Positions 37,301-63,039 of a stretch of DNA of 64,000 bases are shown here, piece after piece. Location: the NCBI RefSeq assembly GCF_042242105.1, contig NC_092031.1, forward strand, positions 5,850,175-5,914,174, in the 5' to 3' direction. A model generated the notes under the pieces. It searched no databases. It saw only the letters and a list, made by a program, of their open reading frames with translations, and was not told the DNA's origin. The translations under genes and the position numbers were made by a program. Position 1 is the first letter of the stretch; each line of letters begins with the position of its first letter. This DNA is from Pempheris klunzingeri. Taxonomy: Eukaryota > Chordata > Actinopteri > Acropomatiformes > Pempheridae.

Positions 37301-40300
37301 TACCACGTGATTCTAGCGCTCAGGCTGTCACATGCACAAAAACACATTTTTAGCTATCACAACCTACTGTTGGTCTTCTCCAGATGCTGTCCTTGACATA
37401 TGGGTTGGTGGTTGGGTCATTATGTTCCATAAGCAGGGTTCAGTGTATGGCAGATGGCTTGAGCGGATTCCCATTTGCATACATGCATACATACAAGCTA
37501 TGAAGTGTCCCTGATCTGAACAGGGGCCGTTTTAGTCTCGTCATACTTAGGAGCAGCTTCCATTGACATTTCCATTTTTTTAATGACATTGCTTACCGGA
37601 GCGGAAAAGAAATATACATAAAAGAAAAAATACAGAAAAGTAAAGTAGTGCACCCAAGTTTAATTGATAGTTTGGGTTTATATTTTAACTTTTTTAGTCC
37701 CTGAAAGAATTGTGAAAATGGGAAAAATACGACATTGTTTTTTTCCACTCTGTTTTTATCTGAATAGTAGATCTGAGATTCCCAGTATCTCCACTAAGAT
37801 GAGAAAAATGGAAAGTATTAATTGATGAAATGATAGTTTGGCCCATATTTCAATTTTAGGAGAAAAATAAAGACTCAAACACAAAAACAAATTTGTGTGA
37901 TGCTGATGTGTCATAATTACCAATTAACTTCCATCTTTAAATTTTCCTCATGTACACCATGTGCAGATTGTTTCAACAGAAACAGACATCTGCAGCAGAC
38001 AGAGAGCCATCTGCATTATGTGTTAGCTAGTCCTGACAGCAGATGCTCCAGCTGTGTGGTGCGCCTTTGTTCCTGCTTTTTTATTTCCCATTTGTGGCCA
38101 TTTGTTAACAGATAATGTAAACAAACAGTAAGTGATAATAGTAGCTCCCAGTGAAACTACAATTTTCTGATCTTTGATTCGTTGAGACAGTAATTTTGTC
38201 TGTCAGTAATGTTCTGACATTTACTTTTTCAAGCCGGATCTTAACTCTCTGAATTGAGGGCACATTTGCTCATTAGCTTAACCTTCCACTGTGAGAAGAG
38301 CCATATATTCAAGCTAGCTGGCTGCTTAGACATCACTGTGGTCTTTACGACGCAAATTTTTTTCATTCTCTCCTTTATCTTTCCTTTCTTTGCCTTCCTC
38401 TTCATCATTAGATGGTGGTTCTGATGGATCCCATGGAGGACCCGGACGACATCCTGCGTGCCAACCGCTCCAGGGAGAAGACCTACATGTTTGACGTGGC
38501 GTTCGACTTCTCAGCCAGTCAGGTTTGTCAAAAGTAAAATAAAACGATAACATGATTAAATCTAAACAAATGTGGCACAGCATGCATGTGCACTTTTAAG
38601 TCTTTTTTCTTCTTCCTGTGCAGGAGGAAGTGTACCGAGCTACGACCAAAGGGCTGATTGAGGGCCTCATTTCAGGCTATAATGCCACCGTGTTTGCCTA
38701 CGGACCCACAGGTTTGTATGTGTGTGGGTCTGAGTGTGTATGACTGTGTTGCAGGGAACCCACAAAATTAACCAAGCACTCAGTCTGACTGGAGGTGTAT
38801 CATCCACCAGTTACATGTTTTAGCTTTCTGGTGCATAATGTCTCATCTGCCTCTCTCTGAGTCAGCTAGCCGGCACGCTCTCAAGAAAAGGGTGACACAA
38901 CTTATTTGCATCTGTTTTGGTATTTAAATTTAGCACTGGTCTGATTAGAAAATGAATGATGCTTTACTTCCAGTGTTTCCAGTGGTTAGGGACAGATTGC
39001 ACCATTTCTCCATCACATTACTTGTTTGTCTCGCTGACTTCTTGAGCCTTCTGTCTGTCCATCTGTCTCAGAGATTCACAGCTCTTTGTCTCCTCTCGTG
39101 GGGAAGTAAACAAGAAGGGTTTTAGCATGTTTGTGTGTGTCTGTGTGTTTATGTGTTTGTTTGCAACTACAGCAACTGTGTGGTCAGGCCTTCAAAGACA
39201 AATTAAGACAGCACATCCTGAAAGTTTGAAAAAAGTAGAAAGAGGGATGACCCTTTAAAACAAAGTCAGCCACACCGGCCAAAGATATTTATATTCTTCA
39301 ATTTTCTTTTCTGTTTACAGGTTGTGGGAAGACATACACCATGTTGGGGACTGACAAGGAGCCAGGCATCTACGTTCGAACACTGAACGACTTGTTCCGT
39401 GCCATTGAGGAGACCAGTGACGACATGCTGTATAGCGTCTCCATGTCCTATCTGGAGGTCAGAAATTCATTTTCCAGACATTTATTCACATCACGTGCTC
39501 CGAAAAACATCTAATTAATGCAGCAGTGGCGATACATCTCCTAAATACCCTGAAGTGGGACTCAAATTGTTTGAGACTTGATTGCGTACTCAGAGTTCAA
39601 ATATTTATTCTGATCTCTTCATGTTTGAATTGTGTTCATCTATCTCTGTCTCTGTCAACGTCACAATTAGAGCGTCTTCTTTCACCATCATCTGTTCACA
39701 CTGATAAGATCTGAGGTTGTTAGCTAATGCCAATTGCAGGCAGATACTACTGGTGTCCTTTTACTTTTCCCTGGCATTCGTTTCACATCTAAAATGAGCT
39801 GAGCTGGCATCCTCATCCACAGCCCTGTGAAGAAGAGCAGTGTGCGGAACATGTTAATTCCACACTGGTATATGTGTGTTTTTGTATCCTGTGTGTTTTT
39901 TTTCTTTTATCTTGCCTTGATGCCTTTTATGTCCTATGTAAATCACTTAGAATTGCTTTTTCAATTGTTGGTGAGAGGTGCTGAACAAATACACCTGTCT
40001 TGCCTCCCTTTGCCTTGCTACAGCAGTTAAGACTTACTCCTGCTACCTCAAAAGCCATCTTTCAAAAAATACTCTTTTGAAAACAGCAGTCAAACACTGC
40101 GTGATTGTCAGCCACTCCATCATTAAAGCATTGGCTGTAGTTTTTGTGGTTTGTCCCTAACTGACCCATGTAGATGCCCATTCATTCACTCAGGCCAGCT
40201 TGGTGTGTAATGGCCTTTAGATGGAGTTGTTCTTTAGCAATAATAGAGACTTATCGAAGACATTGTACGGAGACTGCAGTAATGATGTTACCACACCATC

Positions 40301-43300
40301 ACTTCAAAATTAGTTTGAAGACCGAGCATGTTTGTCTCTCTTAAGTCTTATTATCTGTTACTTTGACACCACCATATCTTGGACAAGATTTACAAACTGT
40401 ACTTGAGGTGACAGAGTGATTATCTCTACCTCTGTCACTGGATGATGAACCACAGATAAGGCGGCAGGCTGATGATGACGGTTTCTGTGTGCCTGCTGGC
40501 TGTTTTTCCAAACCTCATTACTGAGAAGCAGGTACAGCTCAGTGTTTAATAGCAAAGCCCTTAATAGTATTGGATACAGTGGAGTTTGTTCATTTAACTC
40601 TGACAGCAGTAACTGAGCCTCACTGTCGTGACTTAGTACTCTCATTTGGCTTCTTTTGACTTTGGTCAGTTTGACACTAATGTAGTCATGGGCAAAGATT
40701 TCTTAGCTTATATAGTGTTCATCGTTCTGAATAAAAATGTGTCCTTTCAAAAGTTATCTTTTTACACTTTTCACCCTGCAGGCACCAGCTACTTGGTTGT
40801 TGAAATACATAAAAAAATTATATTATGTGGGCCTTAGAAATTGACTGCCTCATTCAGGATCTTTTTTTATGACTTTAAGTGAACAATCTGTCCATTATAG
40901 CTTTGCTCCCAAAAGTTGTTCTGGAAAAGATGGTTGCATAAATATAAAGAAGAATCAGTCAGATTTGTTCAAAAATGTCTGGGGTGCCTGGAAAGGAAAT
41001 GAGAGAAAAGTATAAAGAAACCAAAGGGACAAAGACAGAAAGAGAGAGGCAGATGATGAACATGACCTTGTATATAAAGGGAAATAAAGGATAAGAGCAT
41101 TAAACCTTCAACTGAAAATGAAAATGGCACAATATAGGCAATTGTTAGGTGCAAATGTTGCCTGTTGGGAGGGTTCACGTCAGACACTGACATTACATTT
41201 TGTGTTCTTAGTGCCAAACACTATCATTATGTTCTGTGATTGACAATATTATTGAAGCTGAGCTCTTTAGTAGCACTGTGAGTGGGTGGAAGTGAAATTT
41301 TTCCAATTGAAATGCCAATCATGAAATCTGGATGTTCTCTGACCTATATTGAACTCTTCTGGATGACTCCAGACACAAGGCTGTTGGTGACGTGTGTGTT
41401 TGCTGTTTCCAGGGAGCAATCTGTTGCCACTGCTGCCTTGCCACAAAGAGGTTAAATGCCATTTTACAGCCGGGCTGAGCGATGTGCACACATCTGCTCC
41501 TTTTCATGTTGAAATCACACTCATTTCACACATGCAGTCTCTGAAACGCATGCAAAGAAACACATAGAGCAAATGCAAATAAATATACTTTGTGTAGATA
41601 CTTTGTTCTTCACCACTCACGCACATGCATCAAGCCCGCCCCCCATTCTTTTATTCCTCCTCTGGTTTTGTTTGCCATCTCCTCACATTTAGCAGCATCA
41701 ATGGAAGGAGAAACCTTTTTCGCCAGTATACACCGGTATCATCGTCTGTTTGTTGGTCACCATTTTTGTCTAGACTCAAATATCTCAACAACTATTAGAT
41801 GGATTGCCATGAACTTTGTTACAAATGTACATGATGAGTATGAGCCCTACTGATGTCGGTGATCAGTTGTCACTTTTCCTGTATTGCTACCAGGTCAAAA
41901 TTGTAATTTGTCTAATATTTTCTTCAGTCTACTTTTAACAGATGCTTTATGTTAATGACCAAATACCTAAAAATATATCTGTACTTTGTCTTTAGCGCTA
42001 TTAATAAATGTTAGCATGCTAACGTTCTAAACTGAGATGGTGAACGTTATACCTGCCAAACATTAGCATGTGAGTGTTGTTTTTAATATTAACATTAATA
42101 TTACATTCATATTTAGCTCAAAGCAACATTGTGCCTAGTACCAGTGTGGCTGTCTGCTTTTACTCTCGTTCAAACTTCACAGGCAAGGAAAGACTACAGG
42201 TGGAAAAAAATAACAGAAAAAAATGTTCAGCTGTCATTTTCAGTAAAAGTACTCCCCTTTCAGAGTTTGTGGCCGGGGTCTAGTTGACAAACAAGACCTG
42301 TCTTTACAGCTCTAGCCTCCCTGTGGTTTGTCATCCAGTGGTCACTTTCCAGGATGTCATTCTCCTAACTGAGCTTTTATGTGGGTTTAGGGGCTTTAGC
42401 AGCTACATCAGTGTCACTCCAGACAACTCACCTGCATTTTCATTTTGTGAAAGAAGAGCACTGACACTGGCTGATGACAGCCTGCCACCCAGCAAGCTGT
42501 GGTTTCTAAATGACAAGTTGCTGAAAATATAGTACATGGTGTTTTTGTACCAGGTTTGGGTCTGTGCAAGATGCCTGAAAGCCTGAATGAAACCTTTTCA
42601 GCAGACATCAACAACAAACAACCTCCCAGTTAATTCATGTCTGCAACTCAAAGGAACATAACTTAAGGATTGCGAGAAGAGTCATGAACCTTGTATCTGA
42701 CTTGTACTGCATTTAACCACACTTCACCAAGACATCTTCCTACGCTTTTTATTACATTAAGCTGAAGTTGTTTTATTTTCCTCTGTGTCTTATTAGATCT
42801 ACAATGAGATGATCCGTGACCTGCTGAACCCATCTTCAGGCTTCTTGGACCTGAGAGAAGACTCTAAAGGAGTGATTCAGGTTGCTGGCATCACAGAGGT
42901 TTCTACCGTCAATGCACAAGAGGTTAGACAAGCTACAAGAACGTACATGACATGACTTCTCATCTATTTTAACCAAAGCATTCTGATTTCATCCTGTGCA
43001 ACTGACAGTGAACTCTACCCACGTGTTTTCAGATTATGGAATTGCTGATGAAGGGCAACAAACAGCGCACCCAGGAGCCAACGGCAGCCAATCAGACGTC
43101 GTCTCGCTCCCATGCTGTGCTGCAGGTGGCCGTCAAGCAGCAGAGCCGGTGTCGAGACGTCCTACAGGAGGTCCGATATGCACGCCTCTTCATGATCGAC
43201 CTTGCCGGCTCTGAACGAGCAGCACAGGTGTGTGTGGATATATTCAGTCGGGTGGTGTTTAAATGGCTGAAATGCTGTTAAATTGGTAGTTGTACAGATA

Positions 43301-54254: not shown

Positions 54255-55045
54255 GTAAAGATAAGCTAAGATCTTCCTTTATTAGTCCCACGGTGGGAAC
54301 ATTCACAGTTACAGCAGCAAGTGAGCAAAAGCAAAAGAAGAAGAAATAAATGATACACATAAAAAAGTATGTACAATTCAAACAAGATAAGGTATAAGAA
54401 TAGGGACAATGTACACGGGGAATATAAAAAATGTTGCACTTGAAGTGAGGTTGTTGTGAATAAATATATTGCACAGTTGGTGTACATTATACTGCTGTTT
54501 TGGTGCAGTGTTGTCTACTGGGTCTGCTGGTTGTAGAGTCTGACAGCTGCCGGAAGGAAGGACCTGCGACATCGCTCCTTCACACACTGAGGGTGGAGGA
54601 GTCTGTCGCTGAAGGAGCTCTTCAGTGCTGTCAGAGTATCTTTCATGGAGTGGGAGTCGTTCTGTCTCATGGATGATAGCTTTGCCATCATTTTCCACAC
54701 CTCCACTGGGTCAAGGGGGCGACCCAGGACAGAGCTGGCCTTCTTAATGACTTTGTCCAGTCTCTTCCTGTCCACAGCTGTGATGCTGCTCCCCCAGCAG
54801 ACCACTCTATATAAGATGGCTGATGCCACACAGAGTCATAGGAGGTCTTAAGCAGATAGTCTGCTCTGCCCTTTCTTGTAAAGTGCGTTTGAGTTCTCAG
54901 TCCAGTCCAGTTTATTGTTTAGGTGAACACCCAGGTGTCACCATCTCCATGTCCGCTCCCCAGATGCTCACAGGTGTTGGGGGGGCGTGTGTGTGGAAAT
55001 CGAGTTGTAGGAGAAGTCAATGTAGAGGGTGAAGAGCCCCGTTAA
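54255..55045 (-). mobile_element. 5'-truncated LINE (L2/CR1/Rex-like) 3' end
   Basis: On the minus strand, 54829-54515 encodes the C-terminal end of a fish non-LTR retrotransposon polyprotein. Motifs include YRVVCWGSSIT, DRKRLDKVIKKASSVLG, SFSDRLLHPQC and RRSFLPAAVRLYN. Upstream on that strand, VHLNNKLDWTENSNALYKKG is in another frame, so at least one frameshift and a deletion separate the blocks. The 3' UTR ends with GTGGGACTAATAAAGGAAGA followed by a short TCTTAGCTTATCTT tail (54255-54290). The copy is fragmentary and dead. Clade assignment is from memory. Confidence 0.8.
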
Positions 55046-55722: not shown

Positions 55723-57478
55723 ATGGACCCATCTACTCGGGTGGTGGGTCTGGATGCCCAGGGGAACATGGTTTTCACAGTGGTAAAACCAGTTATGGGC
55801 ATCTTTCAGGTGTCTTCAGAGCAAACAGAAAGCGTTGCACAAGCAGGCATGGGGATACAGGGTTTATCAGAAAATACACTGATCCTCCCTCAAGCGCAAG
55901 GCCAGGCTCAGCTAGACCAGAACCAGGTGGAAATGCACACCATGCAGCCTCAAATGCAGCCCCAGATGCAGGTTTCTGCCCCAGTCCTGATAGAGGATAT
56001 GCCCCAGCATCAGGATCCGCCACCAAACCCGAGCACAAATTCTACCCAGATGCCTTTTGCAGAGGTGTCGTCACTCCTGGATCCCAACATGAAAGGATCC
56101 AAAGCGCGTAAGTGGTCTGTTGTTTGAAGATAATGTCTTTTGAATGGTCAAACCGTGAAGGCTTTGGGGTTTGGACACAAGTGCTGGTTCCATTTTGGTT
56201 TCAGCTCCAAGTTGGTAAAACATCAGGCTTGAATATGTTAAATCTTCTGCAGGAGCACTGCAGAAAACATTCAGGCTTTAGCTCAGTGGCAAATGTATAA
56301 TCTTGAAGTTCTTGAATCTATTTTTTTCTGTGAAGTTATAAACTTTTGTCCCTTAAAATTGCTGAAAGTTAAACCGTAATAACATAAGTAAATTGGATTT
56401 GAGAAAATTTGATATTCAGATATAATAAAGTGCTATTAAATCCCAACACTGCTGGTGCTGGTTCACCTCCTCCTGTCTCGCTCTCATTTCAGGGAAATAT
56501 CTCATCTCGTATGATGAAATTAAACGGCGCCTGCAGGCCCCAGAGAAGATGTCCCTGCGCTCCCTGGCAGCCTACACTCGGGTCAGCAGAGGCCCGGCCA
56601 GCAAGAAAACCCTCCTGGAGTCACTCAATGTTCTCGGCCTCACGCCAAGCACAACCACCTCTGTATCCTCCTCCTTCTCCAAACTCACTGAAGGTGACAG
56701 AGACGTGTGTTAGTGTGGGAGGGATGTTTAGGTCTGGTAACATGACAAAAAGTGCAAGAAACTAAACTTTGTTTCTATTTGTGTATCTGCTTTAGGCGAC
56801 ACCACAGCTTTATGTGACGATATGAAGGACTTTGCCCATGACTACATCGACTACAGCAACATGGCTAAACAGCTTATCCCCGAGATCAATACAGTTCAGC
56901 ACTGGTCCAAAATTATTGAAACTAAGTATGTACTGCTTGTCCTCATGCTACACATGAGCTTCAAGCCCTGAATAAACAGAGTAATAACGCTCTCTTCTTC
57001 TCTCAGGAACCACCTTGAGGACATGAGAAAATGTTTCAAGGACCCGGTCAACAGCAATGCTTTTGATAACGTCACTCACGGCCTGGGTCTGGGAATGTTG
57101 GACGTTGCACTGGACATGGTCGTTATGGTAATTGAACAGCAGATTCGGATCCTGTCTGGCGCGGCGGCATCTGACCCACCGGACTCTGGTCCGCCAGCGC
57201 GCCGTATCCGCAGGCGCCACCGCAAAACCCGCTCAACTGACAACGAGAAGTCTCACAAGACGTCTGGAGAGGTCAATGAGCAAGGGAAGGTCATTTCAAA
57301 AGGCAAGGGGCGAGGCAGAGCCAGGAAGAAGATAAGGCAGGAAACGGGAGCTGCTGGTCCTGTGGAGACCCATGCAGAACAGTGCAAGCCAGATGATGCA
57401 GAGAGTAATGTCCTGACCCTGGTTTCTGTTGGATATGAGACTGTTTCCAGTGGTCTCAATACGACAGGAACAGTTTGA
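55723..57478 (+). CDS. Divergent AP-2 (TFAP2)-like transcription factor, 395 aa
   Basis: Coding exons: 55723-56107, 56493-56693, 56796-56925 and 57007-57478 (TGA), all GT-AG and phase-consistent. Residues 1-128 form a Q/M/P-rich region (MQPQMQPQMQV) that could act in transactivation. Residues from about 128 to 289 align with the AP-2 core. RKYLISYDEIKRRLQAPEKM corresponds to the family's [30 protein letters not shown] corresponds to LREKLDKIGLNL, and LTEGDTTAL to LVEGEAVHL. VTHGLGLGMLDVAL corresponds to LISHGFGSPAVCAAV, ending in a helix MVVMVIEQQIRIL. The highly conserved basic stretch RRAKSKNGGR is replaced by TRVSRGPASKK. The tail has two basic clusters (RRIRRRHRKTR about 304-314; KGRGRARKKIR about 339-349) that look like nuclear localisation or DNA-contact regions. 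It is too diverged to be called any of tfap2a-e. The role as a nuclear DNA-binding protein is inferred. Confidence 0.85.
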
Positions 57479-59644: not shown

Positions 59645-62600
59645 ATGGGACACCCAAGTGTGCCACTCATGTACACCTACACTCGTCCCCACAGGGATAA
59701 ACGCAGATCCAGTCGTCTGCAACCCTACACGCCAAACGGTGAGTGGAACAGAATCATGACTGATGTGTATCAGTGAAAATCAGTCTTTGTATTGGCTTTG
59801 ACATTAATGTGGTTGCAACCTACTCACTTTTGTTTCAGTGATGCTCAACCTTCAAAGTCACACGTGAGACCAGCTGGTGTGACCAGACTTTAATACTATT
59901 GGCCTCTGAGCTGCTTAATCAGACAAGTTAAGGGTTAAATGTCTCGCTTGGAAGCACCTCAGTAGTAGTTTCTGATGGGGGGGGGGATGCTATTCAGTCA
60001 CACACGTTGTCATAACTAGTGAAGAGATTCAAACTTGTGATCTTTCGGTCAAGAATTCTTAAAGGGCCGTGCCAGAGTAATACTTCAGCTCTTTAGTAAA
60101 AAATCACTTGTACTTTTAATGTTTCATCTTCAGATGCATCATTGATACTTTCAAATTAGTTTATGTATTTTTCCTGCTCTCCATGCAGCCATTACTTCCT
60201 GTTCATTCCTGTGCTTGCAGACTCTGGCCTGCTTGCTAGAGTTGTATATTCTTAATAAATAATAAATGATTGTGTCCACTGGCTTTCAGTTAAAAGGATT
60301 CCACAATTTGAGCGAGTTTCAAGAGCCAAGTAATTGATTTTCATATCATGTGGAAATGAATGGAAACCAATGGCTGCCAGGAACGATAGTGAACACTAGA
60401 AATCTGTGATCTGTGTCTGCAGTTAATGGTCTGGTGTTTGAGCAGTACAGTGACCACTACTACTTATCACTATGTGTCTCTGGTCTCTTTATAAGTTCAT
60501 TGAAGGACCATTCAAAGAAATTGGGTTATCAACTGGAGGGTTTTATATTTGCAGAGATCAGCTGGGACAATCAGCTGTCTGTGTAGCCCTCCATTCACTC
60601 TGACTGGCGCTGTAACTCAGCTTTAAAAATATTTCTATTAATTTCCACTAGAGTCAAATATAGTGCTTATATTTGGATCATACAGTTGAAAGTTAGTGAA
60701 CCAGATCCTGTGGTACCAGCTACCCATGTTGTTGATCCCCAGACTTTCTCCCTAACACCACCATGAGGCTGACATTCGTGGTTTTGGGTATAATGTCTCA
60801 ACAGCTTTCAGATTAATTGCCAGAAAGACCAGCGTATGCTCAGAAAGCTCTCTTCATTGGCTCTAAACCAGAACGAACAGAGGCACCATCTGCCTGTTTT
60901 ACAAGTAGGATGTATTGGAGTGAAGTGTATCTCTGCACAATTGGTCAAATTATTTTTTATTATTCTTTGCTCTTGTTCTAATGGAGACCCCCAGAACTGT
61001 GCTGATTTTATACTTTCAGTAGTTTATTTGTATGGTTGTTGTCGGTTGTTTTATGGTTGTTGTATTGTTGTTTTATGTGAAGTCCTGCTTCTCCCTCATC
61101 TAACTGTAATGATGTTCATATTTCCTACACTTACACATACAACCTTCATTTGCGCTCCATTTTATGACCCTTAGTATGTCTCAATTTTTATCTCCACAGA
61201 GAACCTGAACAATGCGTTAGGTGCTATCAGAGTACTCGGTGTGGAACAGATTGAAGACGAACTTAGACCACATCTGAACACAGTGCTCACCAACATCAAG
61301 GAGAGGAGTGAGTCCGTTTACACTCTTTTACACTGTGATGTCTGATTTCTAACTGGAATATATTTTAGGCTGTTCTATCCCTCGAGCCTCAGTTATGACA
61401 TTATCTGCTTGACAGCATTAAATATATCACAACGTGTCCTAGGTTTCATGCCATAATGAGGGGTGTCAGGGTTATTTTACTGTGTCACAGTATGTCTTTC
61501 ATCTTATGTGATGGTCCTGCTGCCCCATGCAATTTACCTATTTTTAAACATTTATTAATATGCGTTTCCTCACAAGTATAACTTAAGGCATCATGCCTCC
61601 CACAACTAGTGCGACCATATCATGACAGCTCCCCATTCTGGATGATAAAACCTTTAGCAAAGCCACACCGGTGAGGGATGGGGAGCTGCAGGGTTGAGTG
61701 ACCGTGACCGGATCAGGTGAGTGACACTTGTGAGTCCTAGGTCGACATTAAGCTGTATCCATGTCTCCTAGCAAGAGGGCAACAGGGGGCAAGAGAGGCA
61801 GAGGAGGTAAAGAAGGGTCAGAGAGATCATGAAGAAGGTGAACACACTAAAAAATTCAGTTGATTATTATTCTGCTTAAAGATTAAAGGAGCACTGATTA
61901 AAAACTACACCTGCTATAACTTGATACACTTCATGCAACTTCATCTTTCAAGGCAAAATTTCCGTTGGCTTTGGCCTAATACACTGATCACACTGTTATG
62001 TCTACTGTGTTTATTTCATTGTCTCCATGTTGTTTTTACATGTGTAATTCCACTTGTGTCCAGACAAAGGCGCTGCTGAGCAGGTGGTGATCAGTGGGAT
62101 CCTGCCAATTCTGGCCCTGTCTCTGAGGAGCAGAGGGCCCCTCGCGCTGCTGACCGCAAAACTAGTGGCTGAACTCGCCAAGGACCGTAAGTTATTTTCA
62201 TATACATGTTCGTCTACGCATGTTTATTTCGTCTATTTCCCCTGTTGGCATCTTTATACTTTATGTTTTGTATCACTGTAGCTTTCCATTCATTTGTTTT
62301 CATGAGTTTTTTTTGTTCTTCTGTCAGCTGTGGTGCGTAAAGGTTTTGGTGACACAGGTTTGGTTATGGCTCTGCTGTCTGTGCTGACCAGTACAAACCA
62401 GGAGCTGCTCGTTTACGCTGTAAAAGCCATCTCTCGCATGTCTTATGACAGCTGTAAGTAAAGTAAAGCAGTAAAAGTACCTAGTTCTAATCATACTAAC
62501 ATTTTGACAGTCTGGATATTTCTGAACTGTTTTCTGTGCCTCCCTCTGCTCCTCTGTCGCCCTCAGCTAAGCTGCAGGAACAGCTGCTCCGTCGAGGTGC

Positions 62601-63039
62601 AGTGCCCCGTCTTGTTGCCATCCTGCTCCGTTTTCCTGATAAGGAGGCCCTGGAGGAAGCATGCCTCCAGGCCCTCTGTAACCTCAGCGGCATGGGAGTG
62701 GCAGAGGAGGCTGGCATGGTCTGGGAGCGGGGGGCGTCTGTGAGACCAGGGGAGTCTGTTTTTCATGGGGTCTCTCCTCACACATGCGGGTTTGCCTCCT
62801 CCGTGACTCTAGTGTGTGTGTCTCAGTGGGCACCAGGTCAATACGCGGTCAACATCGAGGTTTTCCAGCGCTGCTCCTCCTCTTTCTGGAGCCTTCACGG
62901 GAACAAACAGACTGCTCGTTGGTTCCCGTTCTTCAGCTTGGGAACCTGTTCAAATCTGTTCAAGGTGTTCAAGTTCTCTACGAGGAATATTCTCCGAACC
63001 AAAAGTCTGAAGACTCGTGTGTTCCACACTTTCCTCTGA
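59645..63039 (+). CDS. Armadillo-repeat protein resembling SmgGDS/RAP1GDS1, 307 aa
   Basis: Coding exons: 59645-59738, 61200-61307, 62064-62186, 62328-62453 and 62567-63039 (TGA). All introns are phase 1, and the three middle exons (108, 123, 126 nt) are symmetric. Residues from about 30 to 205 carry ARM-type helices: VVISGILPILALSLRSRG, AKLVAELAKDPVVRK, LVMALLSVLTSTNQELLVYA, VKAISRMSYDS, GAVPRLVAILLRFPDKEALE and CLQALCNLSGM. The order and wording resemble SmgGDS (…GILQLFASLL…, …IAEVAKNE…, …LLNSKDQEVLLQ…, …NICYDS…), a guanine-nucleotide factor/chaperone for small GTPases. The tail after AEEAGMVWERG (about 100 aa) has no ARM pattern. All three frames are open there for long stretches, so the tail or the last exon boundary is uncertain. 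ATG 59645 is the first in frame; ATG 59669 is an alternative. The protein is half the length of RAP1GDS1, so it is a relative rather than an orthologue, or the gene continues past the window. Confidence 0.7.
59739..61199. other. Intron 1 of the armadillo gene
   Basis: It includes a plus-strand partial copy of the TCTCAACAACTATT dispersed repeat at about 60725-60835. No other element is recognised. Confidence 0.65.
60725..60835 (+). repeat. Partial copy of the 'TCTCAACAACTATTGGATGG' repeat family
   Basis: GATCCCCAGACTTTCTCCCT, AACACCACCATGAGGCTGAC, ATTCGTGGTTTTGGGTATAA and TGTCTCAACAGCTTTCAGAT follow the family order. Shorter and more decayed than the copy at 41755-42130. Confidence 0.5.
61308..62063. 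other. Intron 2 of the armadillo gene
   Basis: No coding or repeat feature recognised. A short segment CAACAGGGGGCAAG near 61770 is weakly CTCF-like. Confidence 0.65.

Follow-up and report, generated by a model that had tools for sequence, protein, structure and literature searches.

According to two accounts (PMC4866721, PMC10820886), AP-2 proteins have an N-terminal region rich in P and Q, a basic region and a helix-span-helix that is required for dimerisation, and they bind the site GCCN3GGC. Five vertebrate members are counted in one account (PMC4866721), and the zebrafish genes are likewise five, tfap2a-e, whose redundancy in the neural crest and in pigment cells is studied by combined removal (PMC6594659). 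Two further systems, likened to the present one by description only, are C. elegans APTF-1 to -4, a lineage-specific nematode expansion that arose by independent duplications (PMC4866721), and AP-2-like2 of the tunicate Ciona, another AP-2-like chordate gene (PMC7237864). Here we analyse a 64,000-nucleotide stretch of the genome of the percomorph teleost Pempheris klunzingeri (NC_092031.1, positions 5,850,175 to 5,914,174 of the forward strand; the window, to which all coordinates refer) and in it a gene at 55723-57478 (+) whose relatives are recorded at NCBI as 'uncharacterized protein si:ch73-127m5.2', presumably a name in the zebrafish clone-based style, and in some records as 'Transcription factor AP-2 C-terminal domain-containing' or 'AP-2-delta'. 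This gene carries an AP-2 domain by profile and belongs to a divergent AP-2 subfamily whose sequences are already in databases and for which we found no description in the searched literature; no paper was found under the name si:ch73-127m5.2 in a search that lacked most subscription journals and did not extend to supplements.

Results

Splicing of four exons (55723-56107, 56493-56693, 56796-56925 and 57007-57478), separated by three introns that all start with GT and end with AG, yields a single open frame of 395 residues plus stop, which equals the public P. klunzingeri record P0001 letter for letter (100% identity over 100%, 395 residues), so that the coordinates and length given in the initial annotation were exact. 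The TF_AP-2 profile (PF03299), which that annotation had proposed as a check on its AP-2-like assignment, matches residues 126-250 (56098-57040, spanning exons 1-4 with the introns inside) significantly, with E 6.3e-12 and 46.2 bits against a cut-off of 23.4, over profile positions 12-138 of 197. The same profile scored above its curated cut-off in all 10 relatives scanned singly, and 23 of 23 members match. A profile built from 61 core sequences of the family gave 22.2 bits for TFAP2A and 23.5 bits for TFAP2B, the best of 500 TFAP2A shuffles reaching 4.4; single-sequence comparison was weak (top PDB match TFAP2A, E 0.15). The blocks noticed by eye, namely KY..S/T..E(I/V)(K/Q)RRL..PE, L.E.L...GL, L.EG(D/E) and THGLG (in TFAP2A/B, (S/T)HGFG), all lie in one co-linear alignment with TFAP2A/B. 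The sole other Pfam match at E <= 10, NADH_u_ox_C, remained below its cut-off (18.3 versus 25 bits), and assignment to another named family was rejected; NCBIfam, a bacterial/archaeal library, gave no match for this protein. These matches establish, at the level of profiles, that the gene encodes an AP-2 domain.

Structure comparison, in which structures missing from the matches were not read as excluded, indicated that the predicted helix-span-helix half (residues 196-290; 56693-57160, across two introns), presumably the dimerisation half, models well on TFAP2A/B, whereas the recognition half does not. The helix-span-helix of the AP-2 fold is present in the model.

Exon 1 encodes residues 1-128 and the first base of codon 129. 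Its Q/M-rich character, already claimed by the initial annotation, is borne out by composition, as residues 1-110 hold 19 Q, 10 M and 11 P and form a proline/glutamine-rich N-terminal region; within it lies an N-terminal motif (residues 8-31, VGLDAQGNMVFTVVKPVMGIFQVS; 55744-55815). Exon 2 encodes residues 129-196, the basic half of the AP-2 domain that presumably recognises DNA, and holds SLRSLAAYTRVSRGPASKKTL; residues 111-200 are basic (14 K+R versus 8 D+E). The 130-bp exon 3 (residues 196-239) is preceded by a phase 1 intron in codon 196 (LTEG/D) and followed by a phase 2 intron in codon 239 (TK/N). From residue 239 to the stop, exon 4 encodes the remaining helix-span-helix, a tail whose 19 K+R in 60 residues (291-350; 57161-57340) agree with the basic tail previously described, and a conserved C-terminal motif (residues 371-390, ESNVLTLVSVGYETVSSGLN; 57401-57460). 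Shared intron positions with TFAP2 were not used as an argument, since the second border looks about 6 residues off from that of TFAP2A in the alignment. A pseudogene is ruled out by the open, conserved frame, and scans for tandem repeats and bacterial-type promoters around the gene gave nothing useful.

Compared with TFAP2A and TFAP2B (AP-2 alpha and beta; PDB 8j0k/8j0r/8j0l and 8j0q), the fish protein has the same AP-2 domain order and co-linear motifs, with the L.E.L..(I/L)GL and HG(L/F)G blocks, the predicted helix-span-helix fold and a Q/P-rich N-terminal part in common. It differs in the shorter span that separates the two helix groups, in the basic tail and in the conserved C-terminal motif. 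Over a 160-column core, five members are 20.0-23.8% identical to TFAP2A and 21.9-25.0% to TFAP2B, whereas TFAP2A and TFAP2B are 87.7% identical to each other, so that the identity is indeed far below that between these two paralogues and, together with profile and predicted fold, backs the description of the gene as highly diverged and AP-2-like. Canonical TFAP2 proteins have one PPxY; none occurs in the first 150 residues of any of the 151 long family members (at least 370 residues, the set used for all motif counts). Two family records, Hoplias malabaricus P0141 and Bagarius yarrelli P0145, bear the name of TFAP2D (AP-2 delta), which looks like an automatic label and is likely a misnaming.

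The divergence extends to the segment presumed to contact DNA. This central basic segment adjoins the helix-span-helix and is co-linear with TFAP2A, yet it reads YTRVSRGPASKKTLLESL where TFAP2A reads VLRRAKSKNGGRSLREKL, and the majority of its positions do not vary within the family. R254 of TFAP2A, a disease site like R255 and G262, is matched by the same residue, R158. In 62 of 62 members, V159 stands in place of R255 and K166 in place of G262. A recognition segment that is fixed yet altered fits a changed DNA target better than lost binding, as far as sequence can tell.

Within the family the core is strongly constrained and, by sequence identity, flanked by fast-changing ends. Residues 111-290 of the Pempheris protein are 71% identical to those of the moray Gymnothorax and 79% to those of Danionella, compared with 15% and 18% for residues 1-110 and 15% and 26% for residues 291-370. 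Residues 126-205, the recognition half, are better conserved than any other long stretch, at 79-86% to the moray and otophysan members, with SLRS[LI]AAYTRVSRGPA present in 150/151 long members; this conservation suggests that the recognition half does something specific. SLLDPNMK occurs in 151/151. The C-terminal motif, a second conserved island, is 80-85% identical to that of the moray and otophysan members, with a minimum of 55% (P0155), and its LTLVS[VL]GY occurs in 131/151. Identity of the N-terminal motif is 71-92% in seven members (pike, trout, Polymixia, hake, Tetraodon, Knipowitschia and P0135) and 17-21% in four (moray, Danionella, Hoplias and Ameiurus). Paired K/R clusters follow the core in all 151; an AT-hook in the tail is not claimed, with RGR found in just 69. 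The label of a fast-evolving fish gene, which the initial annotation had offered, consequently fails for the core inside teleosts, though it may fit the pre-teleost stem branch.

Homologue searches, which rely on shared five-letter words and covered candidates of about 217-691, at least 386 and at least 394 residues, returned 231 clusters at E <= 1e-3 with the Pempheris protein as query; the best 120 of these 231, 120 of 164 and 120 of 121 were listed. Full-length likeness to the Pempheris protein across teleosts is 49-92% identity in one alignment (A2) and 47-85% in another (A4). Other queries added salmonids, pike, further cods and eels (Anguilla, Gymnothorax), as well as the otophysans Danionella, Onychostoma, characiforms and catfishes. 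All species-named homologues among the matches listed are teleosts (lineages looked up for three of them); neither a non-teleost member nor a zebrafish protein is among these matches. Elopocephalai, the eel branch, and Osteoglossocephalai diverge directly below Teleostei according to the lineages looked up, and since members occur on both sides of this split, the gene was present in their common ancestor.

Among the members, eleven (P0132, P0134, P0135 and P0148-P0155) share RRRL.PPEKMSLRSIAAY, and ten of them also carry an N-terminal G(L/I)NPQ(T/A)N(M/V)VFTVVKP, from which P0155 differs; the two species-named ones, Periophthalmus and Knipowitschia, are gobies. Anguilla anguilla P0133 carries two tandem copies of the initial portion of the AP-2 domain (two stretches, 81.4 bits), which reflect either a genuine partial duplication or a faulty gene model. 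Near-identical pairs in Collichthys lucidus (P0012/P0021, 396/397 residues) and Entelurus aequoreus (P0110/P0114, 382/386), each pair encoded on contigs of equal length, are either recent duplicates or assembly copies.

Upstream of the gene and on the same strand lies kif19, with exons at 39251-43278 and beyond (+), two of which match the kinesin motor domain; the best PDB match of the exon at 43012-43278 (+) is KIF19 (E 1.9e-29, the next 1.4e-17). An open frame of 106 codons (54518-54835, -), located some 0.9 kb upstream of the gene, looks like the terminal part of a retrotransposon reverse transcriptase; it has no Pfam match at E <= 1. Downstream, exons of an armadillo-repeat protein occupy 62048-62800 (+; Arm repeat 23.5 bits versus a cut-off of 20.6), and because the nearest longer model, ARM_ARMC5, fell below its cut-off (32.7 versus 79.9 bits), this gene is left unnamed.

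Discussion

Taken as a whole, with function and history included, the reading of si:ch73-127m5.2 as a teleost-wide, divergent AP-2-domain transcription factor appears to us reasonably probable. Its helix-span-helix would form a dimer, and the exon-2 segment would recognise DNA as TFAP2 does, but with another specificity, because the family-fixed residues of this segment differ from TFAP2. Co-regulators may be contacted by the Q-rich region at the N-terminus and by the hydrophobic motif at the C-terminus, and the basic tail, likely a nuclear localisation signal, would bring the protein to the nucleus and add contacts to the DNA backbone, with gene regulation by this nuclear protein as the presumed outcome. 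The split from other AP-2 genes would predate the common ancestor of eels and other teleosts. To judge from identities rather than dated rates, the core seems to change slowly now, most of the change having fallen on the stem, after which the protein would have stayed fairly constant.

That the AP-2 likeness is a chance or convergent helical resemblance, or the locus a decaying copy, might be argued from the weak single-sequence scores (TFAP2A, E 0.15), but is highly improbable given the Pfam E-value of 6.3e-12, the match of 23/23 members, the structure ranking, the shuffle control and motifs kept in 150-151 of 151 long members. The Pfam match, the shuffle control and the structure ranking rule out chance likeness. 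It is more conceivable, if still unlikely, that the AP-2 dimerisation half was kept and specific DNA binding lost, leaving a partner or damper of tfap2a-e or a co-regulator scaffold. Such a loss would agree with the good modelling of the helix-span-helix half on TFAP2A/B when the recognition half fails, and with the altered R255 and G262 positions in 62/62 members. Against it speaks that the recognition half is the best conserved long stretch (79-86% to moray and otophysans, its motif in 150/151) and still basic (14 K+R, 8 D+E), and that the dimer half, too, has moved away from TFAP2 and might not form heterodimers.

Two accounts of the origin compete. The gene may descend from a tfap2a-e duplicate of the teleost genome duplication or shortly before, with fast change and then slowing, an origin that we hold plausible without favouring it outright. 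The exclusively teleost named homologues among the matches listed and the occurrence of members in Elopomorpha as well as in the other teleosts looked up speak for it, as does a tree with TFAP2A and TFAP2B only, in which the stem of 8.1 substitutions per site, saturated and read only as very long, far exceeds the longest root-to-tip path inside the family (0.85). A saturated stem dates nothing, however; identity to TFAP2A is the same for moray and Danionella (23.8%) and 21.9% for Pempheris, and the searches leave room for orthologues in gar, sharks or tetrapods. An origin as an ancient AP-2 lineage that goes back to the early vertebrate duplications or beyond and was lost in mammals, much as the initial annotation had also offered, is a possibility that we entertain with some reserve: it would explain the extreme distance to TFAP2A/B (20-25%) while the core changes slowly inside teleosts, and further AP-2-like genes exist elsewhere in chordates, such as AP-2-like2 of Ciona (PMC7237864), but no non-teleost member is among the matches listed. 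That the family is a sixth vertebrate AP-2 subfamily beyond tfap2a-e, retained by teleosts and lost by mammals, with its own fixed recognition segment and hence its own binding site and gene network, we regard as rather doubtful.

If the reading as a divergent AP-2-domain transcription factor is true, the gene would be an uncounted AP-2-domain member with a strongly conserved core and possibly altered DNA specificity. It occurs across teleosts, including Danionella, a close relative of zebrafish, and should be testable in zebrafish. It would also exemplify a transcription factor whose strong divergence was followed by slower change.
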